Program-made: the position numbers and the translations under genes
Source of the DNA: Pseudomonas sihuiensis
GTDB taxonomy: Bacteria; Pseudomonadota; Gammaproteobacteria; Pseudomonadales; Pseudomonadaceae
NCBI RefSeq assembly: GCF_900106015.1
Contig: NZ_LT629797.1
Span: forward strand, 4,278,001 to 4,342,000
Direction: 5' to 3'
DNA: 64,000 nucleotides
Part shown: positions 30,635 to 35,621 of the stretch, piece by piece
Layout: each line of letters begins with the position of its first letter
Position numbering within the stretch: the stretch's first letter is position 1
The notes under the pieces: model-generated
Told to the model about the DNA's origin: nothing
Database searches by the model: none
Seen by the model: the letters and a program-made list of their open reading frames with translations, nothing else

Positions 30635-30635
30635 T

Positions 30636-30682
30636 CGTGCAAATTGCACGTGTCGTAATTCATGTATCTTGCAAAGTGCATG
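30636..30682. promoter_or_regulatory. Paired upstream activator sites (TGCAA-N-TTGCA)
   Basis: CGTGCAAATTGCACG at 30636-30650 is a perfect 7-1-7 palindrome. CTTGCAAAGTGCATG at 30668-30682 matches it at 12 of 15 positions. Their centres are 32 bases apart, three helical turns, and about 130 and 98 bases upstream of the start point predicted from the sigma-54 element at 30747. This is the normal layout for an NtrC-type activator. A third copy lies at 34628-34642. Confidence 0.65.
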
Positions 30683-30705
30683 GAAGAAGGTGTTGATTTT
30701 AATTT

Positions 30706-30718
30706 TAAGCTATTGATT
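30706..30718 (-). promoter_or_regulatory. IHF-binding site
   Basis: TAAGCTATTGATT is a full match to the IHF consensus (WATCAANNNNTTR on the minus strand), in an AT-rich stretch between the activator palindromes and the sigma-54 promoter. IHF bending at this position is typical of sigma-54 promoters. Confidence 0.55.
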
Positions 30719-30746
30719 TATAAGGATATTTTAGAGGAATTGATGT

Positions 30747-30762
30747 TGGCATGAGCGCTGCA
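30747..30762 (+). promoter_or_regulatory. Sigma-54 promoter
   Basis: TGGCAT-GAGCG-CTGCA has GG and GC separated by ten bases, as required for -24/-12 recognition. It lies 48 bases upstream of the small secreted protein gene. Confidence 0.6.
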
Positions 30763-30809
30763 GAATCAGTTATGTAAGCCCCCGACTGACCTGCTGATGG
30801 AGAAGCGTC

Positions 30810-31121
30810 ATGAACATCGTCCGAGTGAGCCTGTTTTGCGTCGCTGCATTGCTGGTCAACGGGGCTTACGCCAAAGATTTCAGTGGTTCGGCCGGAGCCG
30901 TTGCGAAAACGGCCGAGTTCACCCTTTCCAACTCGCCGGTGTGGCAATCGCGCGCTGCTGCACAGCAGGAAGGCTCCGCCGAACTGCGTACCCAGCCCTC
31001 CCGCGCTGTCGGAGCCATCGGCGACGATGCGCAGTGGCTGCGCATCTCCAACGAGGGCGACACCGATACCGCCAACCGTGAGCCACGCCCTGCCAATAGC
31101 ACCCCGCGCTGGGTGTTCTGA
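30810..31121 (+). CDS. Small secreted protein of unknown function
   Basis: A 103-residue protein with a signal peptide (MNIVRVSLFCVAALLVNGAYA, cut after AYA) and a short mature part rich in Ala, Ser, Asn and charged residues, with no cysteine and no domain I recognise. It is the first gene behind a sigma-54 promoter with paired activator sites, 18 bases before a gene for a tiny membrane protein. The control by a kinB-algB-adjacent sigma-54 region suggests an envelope role, by inference. Confidence 0.7.
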   Translation: MNIVRVSLFCVAALLVNGAYAKDFSGSAGAVAKTAEFTLSNSPVWQSRAAAQQEGSAELRTQPSRAVGAIGDDAQWLRISNEGDTDTANREPRPANSTPRWVF

Positions 31122-31139
31122 CCGACAAGGAGTCCTGCC

Positions 31140-33214: not shown

Positions 33215-33227
33215 GGAAATCCCGTGG

Positions 33228-34580
33228 TCAGAGGTTGTACTGCTTGCGTTTGCGGTAGAGGGTCGAGGTATCGATACCCAGCGTCTTGGCCGCCATGTCG
33301 AGGGTGTTGCTGCTGGCCAGCACGGCGGCAATATGCGCCTTTTCCAGCTCTTCGAGGCTCATCGCTGCGCCGACACGTACGGCGTTGTTCGGCGCTTCGC
33401 CGTTGCCGCCCAGGCCGAGATGGCTAACCTCCACCACGTCGCTCTGGCAGATGATGCTGGCGCGCTCGATGACGTTACGCAGCTCGCGGATATTGCCTGG
33501 CCAGTGATAAGCCTGCAGGGCGGCGGCAGCCTCGGGGCTGAAACCGCACGCCGGGCGCCCGTAGTCGCTGACGAAGCGGGCGAGAAAGCGTTCGGCCAGG
33601 CCCATCACGTCTTCGTGACGTTCGCGCAACGGCGGCAGCTTGAGGGTGATGACGTTGAGGCGGTACAGCAGGTCTTCGCGGAAGCGGCCCTCGCGCACCA
33701 TTTCGTCGAGGTCCAGGTTGGTCGCGGCGACAATGCGCACATCGGCCCGCCGGGTCACCGGATCGCCAACGCGCTCGTACTCCTTGTCCTGAATGAAGCG
33801 CAGCAGCTTGGGCTGCAGGGTCAGCGGGAAGTCGCCGATCTCGTCGAGGAACAGGGTGCCGCCGTCGGCCTGACTGACGCGGCCCTGGGTGCTTTCGCTG
33901 GCACCGGTGAAGGAGCCGCGGGCGTGACCGAACAGCTCGCTTTCCATCAGCTCGGCCGTCAGTGACGGGCAGTTGATGGTCACGCAGGTGCGCTTGGCAC
34001 GGCGGCTCCAGCCGTGGATGGCACGCGATAGCTCACCCTTGCCGGTGCCGGATTCGCCGAGAATGAGGATGTTGGCGTCGGTAGCGGCGACCTGCCGTGC
34101 GGTTTCCAGAATCGCCATCATCGCCGGGCTATGCGAGTCGAGACCGTCCTTGGCCTTGCGTACCTCACCTTCCAGAGCTTCCAGGCGTGCAGCCAGCGTA
34201 CGCACTTCCAGTTGCTTGGCGGCGGCCAGGCGCAATTGATCGGGGGTGCAGGGTTTGACCAGATAGTCGGCGGCGCCGGCCTGGATGGCATCGACCGCGG
34301 TGTCCACGGCCGAGTGGGCGGTGACGATCACCACGCGCATCCAGGGGGCCTGGATGCGCATCTGCGCCAACAGGTCCAGGCCGTTGTCCTCGCCCAGGCG
34401 CAGGTCGAGAAAGCACAGGTCGAACACCTGTCGCTGCAGCAGCGCCTCGGCTTGAGTCGCACTGCTGGCACCGGCGACGTCATAGCCTTCGTCTTCAAGG
34501 CAGTAACGGAAGGTACGCAGGATTGCCGCTTCGTCGTCCACCAGCAGAATGCGTCCACTGGTTTGCTCTGCAACTGCCAT
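33228..34580 (-). CDS. algB: Alginate regulator AlgB (NtrC-type response regulator)
   Basis: A 450-residue activator. The receiver carries D59 in FLDLRLGEDNG. The AAA+ domain has Walker A GESGTGKG (175-182), Walker B GGTLFLDEIGD, and the sigma-54 contact loop as GSFTGA (222-227) instead of the usual GAFTGA. The C-terminal Fis-type helix-turn-helix reads LDMAAKTLGIDTSTLYRKRKQYNL. AlgB controls alginate and virulence genes. A copy of the TGCAA-N-TTGCA palindrome lies just upstream of its start, so autoregulation is possible. Confidence 0.93.
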   Translation of the reverse strand: MAVAEQTSGRILLVDDEAAILRTFRYCLEDEGYDVAGASSATQAEALLQRQVFDLCFLDLRLGEDNGLDLLAQMRIQAPWMRVVIVTAHSAVDTAVDAIQAGAADYLVKPCTPDQLRLAAAKQLEVRTLAARLEALEGEVRKAKDGLDSHSPAMMAILETARQVAATDANILILGESGTGKGELSRAIHGWSRRAKRTCVTINCPSLTAELMESELFGHARGSFTGASESTQGRVSQADGGTLFLDEIGDFPLTLQPKLLRFIQDKEYERVGDPVTRRADVRIVAATNLDLDEMVREGRFREDLLYRLNVITLKLPPLRERHEDVMGLAERFLARFVSDYGRPACGFSPEAAAALQAYHWPGNIRELRNVIERASIICQSDVVEVSHLGLGGNGEAPNNAVRVGAAMSLEELEKAHIAAVLASSNTLDMAAKTLGIDTSTLYRKRKQYNL

Positions 34581-34627
34581 GTATGTGCTCCATCTGACGG
34601 GTCAATGCAGCTTAGTCAGGTAAAAAC

Positions 34628-34685
34628 CATGCAAGTTGCACGGCTCGACTGTGCCGATACTGCACCCTGCATGCAGGCAGGGTGC
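34628..34685. promoter_or_regulatory. Upstream activator region of the BON operon
   Basis: CATGCAAGTTGCACG at 34628-34642 matches the palindrome at 30636-30650 at 13 of 15 positions. A second inverted repeat, GCACCCTGC (34662-34670) and GCAGGGTGC (34677-34685), follows with its centre about 39 bases on. They are about 129 and 90 bases upstream of the start point predicted from the sigma-54 element. They are also just upstream of algB on the other strand. Confidence 0.6.
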
Positions 34686-34737
34686 CTTTATTGTTGATAA
34701 ATATTTGTTTTAAAAGGGAATTTTAATTTCTTCTGAC

Positions 34738-34752
34738 TGGCACGGGGCTTGC
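34738..34752 (+). promoter_or_regulatory. Sigma-54 promoter of the BON-domain operon
   Basis: TGGCACGGGGCTTGC matches the consensus TGGCAC-N5-TTGC in every fixed position. It is 39 bases before the ATG at 34791, and an AT-rich stretch (about 34686-34735) links it to the activator sites. Confidence 0.8.
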
Positions 34753-34790
34753 GATATTGCCTGTATCGTCTCACGAACAGGAGTGAACTC

Positions 34791-35621
34791 ATGCCCCCGT
34801 TCAAGCCTTTGTTACTGGCCGCCGGCACCGCGCTGATGCTCGGCCTGACGCCTGTGGCCAGCCACGCTGCCGAAGGTCAGCTATCAGCACAGCTGGATGC
34901 GGCCCGCCAGGAAGGTTCGATCTGGACAGCCTTCGCGCTCAACCGGCATCTCAACCCTTTCAAGCTCGATATCGACGTTGAGGATGGCGCGGCCACCCTC
35001 AACGGCAAGGTCGAGAACGATGTTCAGAAAGAGCTGGCCGAGCAGGTGGCGCTGAGCATAGATGGCATCGATTCGGTGGACAATCGCATCGAGGTCAGCA
35101 GTGACGCGGTCGAGGGCGATGCGCCGAGCATGGCGCAGCGCCTTGAGGACGCCAGCCTCGCCGCCACGGTGAAGTCCAAGTTGCTGTGGAACAGCAACAC
35201 CCGCGGCCTGGACATCCAGGTCAAGAGCGAAACCGGCAACATCACCCTCAGTGGTCATGCGCAGACGCCGGCGGCCAAGGAGTTGGCAGGCCAGCTGGCA
35301 GCCAATACCGATGGCGTGCGCGAAGTGTTCAACCACCTCAGCATCAGCACTGCCGACAGCAGTAGCAGCGCAGTGCAAACCACACTCGACGAAGCGCGCG
35401 AGAACATCAGTGACAGCTGGATCACCAGCAAGGTCAAGGCCAGTTTCCTCTACAGCCGCAATCTGGACGCCATGAACATTACGGTGAGCACCGACGACGG
35501 CCTGGTCAGTCTGCGCGGCAGTGTGCTGAGCAGTGCCGAGAAGCGATTGGCAGTCGAGACCGCCCGCAACATTCGCGGTGTGCGTGGCGTCGATGCCGAC
35601 GCCCTGCGCATCAGCAGTTGA
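34791..35621 (+). CDS. Periplasmic protein with three BON domains (OsmY-like)
   Basis: A 276-residue protein with a signal peptide cleaved after SHA (about residue 23) and three BON domains at about 40-105, 120-190 and 205-275. Each ends in the typical glycine-centred strand pattern, for example GIDSVDNRIEV, GVREVFNHLSI and GVRGVDADAL. BON domains bind membranes or phospholipids and are linked to osmotic and envelope stress. The start at 34791 has AGGAG at 34779-34783. A sigma-54 promoter stands directly upstream; the DUF2383 gene follows after 67 bases in the same unit. Confidence 0.88.
   Translation: MPPFKPLLLAAGTALMLGLTPVASHAAEGQLSAQLDAARQEGSIWTAFALNRHLNPFKLDIDVEDGAATLNGKVENDVQKELAEQVALSIDGIDSVDNRIEVSSDAVEGDAPSMAQRLEDASLAATVKSKLLWNSNTRGLDIQVKSETGNITLSGHAQTPAAKELAGQLAANTDGVREVFNHLSISTADSSSSAVQTTLDEARENISDSWITSKVKASFLYSRNLDAMNITVSTDDGLVSLRGSVLSSAEKRLAVETARNIRGVRGVDADALRISS

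Follow-up and report, generated by a model that had tools for sequence, protein, structure and literature searches.

At the Escherichia coli glnAp2 promoter, the NtrC enhancer consists of sites near -140 and -108, where two dimers are bound on one face of the DNA and looping is assisted by the integration host factor (IHF). A comparable arrangement was found twice around the kinB and algB genes of Pseudomonas sihuiensis, in a stretch of 64,000 nucleotides corresponding to bases 4278001-4342000 of the 5,476,267-base contig NZ_LT629797.1 (hereafter, the window). There, kinB and algB, the latter encoding an NtrC-type response regulator, are located on the minus strand and flanked by two plus-strand operons, one for small proteins and another, divergent from algB, for a BON-domain protein and a DUF2383 protein. 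As at glnAp2, the -24/-12 element is preceded, at roughly 100-130 bases, by a pair of dimer sites separated by about three helical turns, and the candidate regulator belongs to the NtrC family. Unlike glnAp2, the regions described here show a dyad with the core TGCANNNTGCA, an IHF site in a fixed place, envelope instead of nitrogen genes downstream, and the activator gene beside its putative targets. It is very probable that AlgB binds these paired dyads and that it drives an envelope-stress regulon through sigma-54; it may regulate itself in addition.

According to a review, unphosphorylated AlgB binds directly to three sites at algD of P. aeruginosa (PMC10418997); the regulator is the same, whereas the targets proposed here are small envelope and stress genes instead. 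In a 2019 paper on photosensing through BphP, KinB and AlgB, phospho-AlgB is the active form and is supposed to activate unknown genes, the genes downstream of AlgB being marked as not known (PMC6932827). That light response of P. aeruginosa uses the same two-component system; the paper names no target promoter, and a set of candidates is proposed here. In addition, AlgU has been reported to activate algB (PMC13001231), a chromatin immunoprecipitation sequencing study of AlgB from P. syringae is cited (Xie 2022, in PMC11957545), and an AlgB motif obtained by systematic evolution of ligands by exponential enrichment probably exists (PMC8041468). Neither the motif nor AlgB control of these operons was found in the literature searched, which was partly accessible and had many subscription papers outside its scope. 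Within that literature, the kind of system, an NtrC-type enhancer, is known, and the motif, the targets and the link to algB are not described.

The control region of the small-protein operon (30636-30762) starts with a perfect 15-base palindrome around a central A (box 1, CGTGCAAATTGCACG, 30636-30650, plus strand), centred at about -130 when the C of the -12 GC is counted as -12. Box 2 (30668-30682, plus strand, CTTGCAAAGTGCATG, with the core TGCAAAGTGCA at 30670-30680) agrees with box 1 in 12 of 15 positions and is centred at about -98, at a spacing of 32 bp. Further downstream are an IHF site assigned by consensus match only (WATCAANNNNTTR, 0 mismatches, 30706-30718, minus strand) and the sigma-54 element TGGCATGAGCGCTGCA (30747-30762, plus strand). 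The palindrome, its 12/15 copy and the full IHF match had been claimed in an earlier note on this DNA, and all were confirmed letter by letter.

The region upstream of the BON operon (34628-34753) is built in the same way. Its box 1 (34628-34642, CATGCAAGTTGCACG, no strand assigned) is the box proximal to algB, whose start codon is some 60 bases away; it agrees with CGTGCAAATTGCACG in 13 of 15 positions and is centred at about -129. Box 2 (34661-34671, plus strand, TGCACCCTGCA) has its centre at about -98, the spacing to box 1 being 31 bp, and is followed by an IHF-like site with one mismatch to the consensus (34698-34710, minus strand) and by the sigma-54 element TGGCACGGGGCTTGCG (34738-34753, plus strand). 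The 13/15 copy and the consensus sigma-54 element noted previously were thus located, as were the near-equal distances of both layouts. The other inverted repeat claimed for this region overlaps the same-core dyad at 34661-34671, which the earlier note had not recognised as a second box. As the second region is also two-boxed, with a spacing of 31 versus 32 bp, both layouts match part for part. Both -24/-12 elements show the GG-N10-GC arrangement.

The algB gene (33228-34580, minus strand) encodes a protein of 450 amino acids, in which Pfam identified a receiver, a sigma-54 AAA+ domain and a Fis-type helix-turn-helix, so that the domains required of a sigma-54 activator are all present. The loop of the AAA+ domain has the form GSFTGA. 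In a set of 80 algB loci taken from public genomes, this form occurs in 10, the nearest relatives among them, and the remaining 70 have GAFTGA; according to PMC3162934, LevR tolerates S in place of A at the second residue. The helix-turn-helix is nearly invariant among the algB loci compared, and AlgB is 100% identical in three named genomes, two of them from Pseudomonas chengduensis. From these domains and from the layout shared with glnAp2, we infer AlgB binding and sigma-54 activation at both operons. Each region would be a sigma-54 promoter equipped with an enhancer of its own, made of two dimeric sites with a consensus near TCGTGCAA-N-TTGCACG and the core TGCANNNTGCA, placed near -130 and -98 and separated by 31-32 bp, equivalent to three helical turns. 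AlgB would bind both dyads, IHF would bend the stretch that separates them from the promoter, and the AAA+ domain of AlgB would open the sigma-54 RNA polymerase. In this way, AlgB would switch on the adjoining operons and a second, unlinked BON-CsbD operon located elsewhere in the genome.

Conservation of the palindromes next to algB, on which the earlier note had made its proposal depend, was assayed in the 80 loci, with a module defined by a sigma-54 score of at least 9, a box 1 of at least 7/8 and at least 13/16 for both boxes combined. At least one two-box module was present in 78 of them (107 modules in total), and none in the reversed loci; the exceptions were L065 and L074, the latter with 1.6 kb of upstream sequence. 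A further set of 20 algB loci, drawn from several genera, yielded 17 with a module at a looser cut-off (box 1 of at least 6/8), at which no module was found in L285, L286 and L295. Two kinds of promoter recur at the algB loci, one preceding a BON gene and another preceding a small-protein gene whose product ends in RWVF. In the relatives of the window, this RWVF gene lies behind kinB in 9 of 10 loci (L039-L047 and L088, with L042, the tenth, stopping early); in 59 of the 80 loci, an RWVF-ending open reading frame lies upstream of algB at a distance of up to 2.5 kb. Therefore, the gene occurs on either side of algB-kinB, and so do the modules.

The geometry of the module was also measured in a sample of 212 distinct modules from all the loci collected, which are related by ancestry and so non-independent. 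The distance from the end of box 1 to the TGG was 96-98 bases in 195 of the 212, and both boxes scored 7/8 or better in 157 modules, of which 123 had the boxes 31 bp apart and 24 had them at 32 bp (147 in all). An exact IHF consensus precedes the TGG in 96 of the 212, beginning at -41 or -40 in 93 of them, and with up to one mismatch allowed, the site was detected in 179 modules versus 10 of 212 when the sequences were reversed. Paired dyads in helical phase, 31-32 bp apart, and an IHF-like site before the promoter, which NtrC-type enhancers commonly but not always have, are features of the window and of most of the modules.

The presence of the box plus sigma-54 pattern and that of AlgB were then compared in 198 genomes of Pseudomonadaceae, 156 with algB and 42 scored as lacking it; absence meant a best E value no better than 9e-95, and genome G197, whose best E was 1.4e-163, entered the positive group. 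The pattern was matched 597 times in the algB-positive genomes (3.83 per genome) versus 29 times in the negative ones (0.69 per genome), a difference with a Mann-Whitney p of 2e-19, uncorrected for phylogeny. The reversed pattern gave 16 and 3 matches, respectively, and a wrong spacing (gap 110-122) gave 115 (0.74 per genome) and 28 (0.67 per genome). Therefore, the genomes without algB are at background level. Only one of their 29 matches has both boxes at 8/8 and an exact IHF site, namely L328 of genome G196, whose contig stops 272 bases beyond it with terminal bases encoding an AlgB-like N-terminus; G196 thus has an algB gene cut by the assembly. A 5.8-Mb genome without algB (G100) contained no match.

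A similar result was obtained when the loci of one target family were followed. The BON protein of the unlinked operon (L121) served as query against 41 algB-negative genomes (all 42 except G037) and against 47 of the 156 positive ones, chosen across genera. When whole loci were examined, a module was present in 24 of 30 BON loci from algB-positive genomes versus 1 of 30 from negative ones, the latter being that of G196, and 0 modules were found in 3226 reversed windows of 320 bases. In genus g16, the algB-positive genome has the module (L280), whereas the negative one lacks it (L231). In the genomes sampled, the anatomy of the module is conserved and complete modules occur only with algB. That the modules should track algB had been anticipated in the earlier note, whose AlgB interpretation is supported as far as the sequence goes; to pass from tracking algB to being bound by AlgB is a step that we infer.

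The bare core TGCANNNTGCA occurs 6 times in the window versus 3.07 expected from shuffles, and four of the six correspond to the boxes described; the remaining two overlap each other at 60479-60496. The strict form TGCAANTTGCA, with box 1 of the small-protein promoter among its sites, was found in 6 places of the 5.48-Mb genome versus 1 for the reversed pattern. Two of the six flank kinB-algB, and the other four appeared incidental by eye, two being coding, one lying before a small gene and one in an intergenic hairpin. With 2 mismatches allowed, the search became uninformative (1645 matches per strand versus 1219 in the control). When the box had to be followed by a sigma-54 element after a gap of 84-112, 7 matches were obtained in the genome versus 0 for the reversed pattern, two being those flanking kinB-algB. 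The third copy (L121, G000:C1:2936886-2937009, minus strand) is intergenic, has a gap of 98, is unlinked to algB and leads a BON gene followed by a CsbD gene. Three other matches were dismissed, L119 and L120 for lying inside long open frames and L125 for lying within a 578-codon frame on the opposite strand. The last one, L122 (G000:C1:3615522-3615646), is intergenic, with a strong sigma-54 element (TGGCACACGCCCTGCA) and a poor box followed by TTTCGGGGACCTTGGTACAGGCA repeats; similar stretches were listed in G171, G109, G116 and G179, and it may represent a separate sigma-54 unit or a small RNA. In addition, an exact palindrome, TGCAATTTGCA, outside the sigma-54 modules found (L037, G000:C1:4130344-4130354), lies in an intergenic region before a small gene whose product contains HPGGHDDDEK.

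The position of the algB-proximal box suggests that AlgB may adjust its own transcription, a predicted autoregulation already raised as a possibility in the earlier note, to which we would give about an even chance. In this stretch, a dyad of at least 7/8 was present in 79 of the 80 algB loci, and it was retained in 28 of the 29 loci that have a small-protein-type promoter and no scored BON-type promoter. However, the conserved block extends beyond the dyad, and core-promoter sequence that overlaps it may likewise account for its conservation.

Several observations weigh against control of these modules by AlgB. Reports on the active state of the protein conflict, as it is described as unphosphorylated at algD (PMC10418997) and as phosphorylated in the light response (PMC6932827), so that the form predicted to act here could be either. 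No match to the pattern was found in three algB-positive genomes (G017, G056 and G150), and 6 of the 30 algB-positive BON loci have no module (L269, L270, L272, L273, L276 and L278), three of them in genus g17. Two matches from algB-negative genomes, L307 and L310, pass the two-box rule; their IHF site has 5 mismatches, and each lies in one open frame and is apparently coding. The BON comparison was not fully matched, because the algB-positive loci are nearer to the query than the negative ones; among the 30 negative loci, 11 match at E 1e-25 or better, 9 of these from genus g18. Finally, genomes without algB tend to be smaller, another regulator could vanish along with algB, and the counts of the family survey carry no correction for phylogeny. 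The algB-positive genomes of genus g17 (G044, represented by L285, and G017 and G056), as well as G150 (L286) of genus g9, show few or no modules; L285 has no algB-proximal dyad and L286 retains one. The regulon may have been lost or rewired in those genomes.

In an alternative that we consider unlikely, the enhancer is a genuine sigma-54 one bound by another activator of the NtrC family, the link to algB arising from the order of the genes and from their joint loss. Several relatives of AlgB are present in every genome searched (at least 8 scored matches each), other activators may also have been lost in the often small genomes without algB, and modules are missing from some genomes that have it. 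On the other hand, modules adjoin algB in 78 of the 80 loci, occur on either side of algB-kinB, and vanish in algB-negative genomes of several genera, G100 included, in spite of its 5.8 Mb. Far less probable is that the dyads serve a sigma-54-independent regulator, such as a repressor, with the sigma-54-like elements being served by something else. The persistence of the algB-proximal box where no BON-type element was scored indicates that conservation of a box may have other causes, whereas the fixed gap to the TGG (195/212), the fixed spacing of the boxes (147/157) and the IHF site (179/212 versus 10 in reversed sequence) correspond to the layout of a sigma-54 enhancer.

A chance resemblance, or promoter DNA kept by shared ancestry without function, would fit the frequency of the bare core in the window, where it is not a rare sequence (6 versus 3.07), and the relatedness of the modules by descent, but its probability is close to nil. 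Chance was rejected by the controls with reversed pattern, reversed sequence and wrong spacing, with 0 modules in the 3226 reversed windows and 0 in the reversed algB loci. Moreover, the module is kept before several unrelated gene families, and once G196 is corrected, no complete module with IHF remains in genomes without algB. Binding by AlgB is the reading that we prefer over all three.

The genes led by the module were tallied in 40 loci, a descriptive count, as they were picked by eye among the matches listed, favouring real-looking modules. Sixteen were single-BON genes, several of them with a CsbD or DUF2383-like gene, and 9 were pairs of RWVF-like and KFDPxLR small proteins (in L194, only the second was called). 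Two RWVF-type operons included DUF1328 (L210 and L223); L210 combines an RWVF-ending small protein with DUF1328 and Ivy, and a second module there precedes a triple-BON gene. The rest comprised 1 DUF1328-Ivy, 3 DUF2383, 5 DUF3509 or similar, 3 membrane proteins without Pfam match and 1 module without a near gene. Pfam confirmed one example each of BON, CsbD, DUF2383, DUF3509, DUF1328 and Ivy, the other assignments being by likeness, and a second DUF3509 example scored just under the cut-off. These genes form a coherent envelope and stress set, as judged from their predicted functions.

PA4738, PA4739, PA5481 and PA5482 of P. aeruginosa are presumably orthologues of the operons described here, and PA5482-PA5481 is presumably the same operon as that of the L210 type. 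According to PMC4981712, where no regulator is named for it, the PA5482-PA5481 operon includes the Ivy precursor PA5481; it resembles the module-led operon of L210 in that both have an Ivy gene. The four genes are 4 of the 24 down-regulated in a PA2206 array (PMC3557286). PA4738 and PA4739 are up with beta-lactams in PAO1, and PA4739 is down in two epidemic-type isolates, according to PMC10654054.

In the window, the first gene of the small-protein operon (30810-31121, plus strand) encodes 103 amino acids ending in TPRWVF, and the second (31140-31325, plus strand) encodes 61 ending in GRRIKFDPVLR. Neither has a Pfam match; their C-termini, RWVF and KFDPVLR, are kept in distant relatives, and the remainder is variable. 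Between this operon and kinB, there is a hairpin (31352-31378) with a terminator-like score on the minus strand, as expected for convergent units. The kinB gene (31418-33214, minus strand) encodes a sensor kinase of 598 amino acids from the ATG at 33214, with KinB_sensor, HAMP, PAS, HisKA and HATPase domains. Downstream of the second region, the BON gene (34791-35621, plus strand) encodes 276 amino acids with three BON stretches, followed by the DUF2383 gene (35689-36123, plus strand; 144 amino acids from the ATG at 35689). On the other side, the small-protein promoter is immediately preceded by a kinase gene (29447-30634), the last of a signalling cluster (24461-30634) that ends 1 base before box 1. 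This cluster contains a hybrid kinase-like gene, cheR- and cheB-like genes and a response regulator-kinase gene, Pfam having been used for the last one and the others being assigned by eye.

The scope of the original proposal is widened by these results from two neighbouring operons to a putative regulon in many genera of the family, and the control regions belong to a conserved switch, widespread in the Pseudomonas family, that probably lets AlgB activate small envelope-protection genes, including a lysozyme inhibitor in some species. Although AlgB has been studied extensively for its part in alginate production, virulence and the response to light, few of its targets are known; direct ones are proposed here, and the conserved pattern of sites together with the gene set makes the question of its targets directly testable. 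The putative targets also offer a regulatory clue for several protein families of unknown function. With periplasmic BON proteins and lysozyme inhibitors among them, they further point to a single switch for the control of alginate and the protection of the envelope. In its broadest form, which we regard as evenly balanced between being right and wrong, AlgB with sigma-54 would be the direct master activator of a compact envelope-defence regulon through much of Pseudomonadaceae, comprising BON/OsmY-like, CsbD, DUF2383, DUF1328, DUF3509, Ivy and RWVF/KFDPVLR proteins, and algB would control itself from the shared divergent box. Through BphP and KinB, far-red light and quorum state would then be tied to the protection of the cell wall and against lysozyme.

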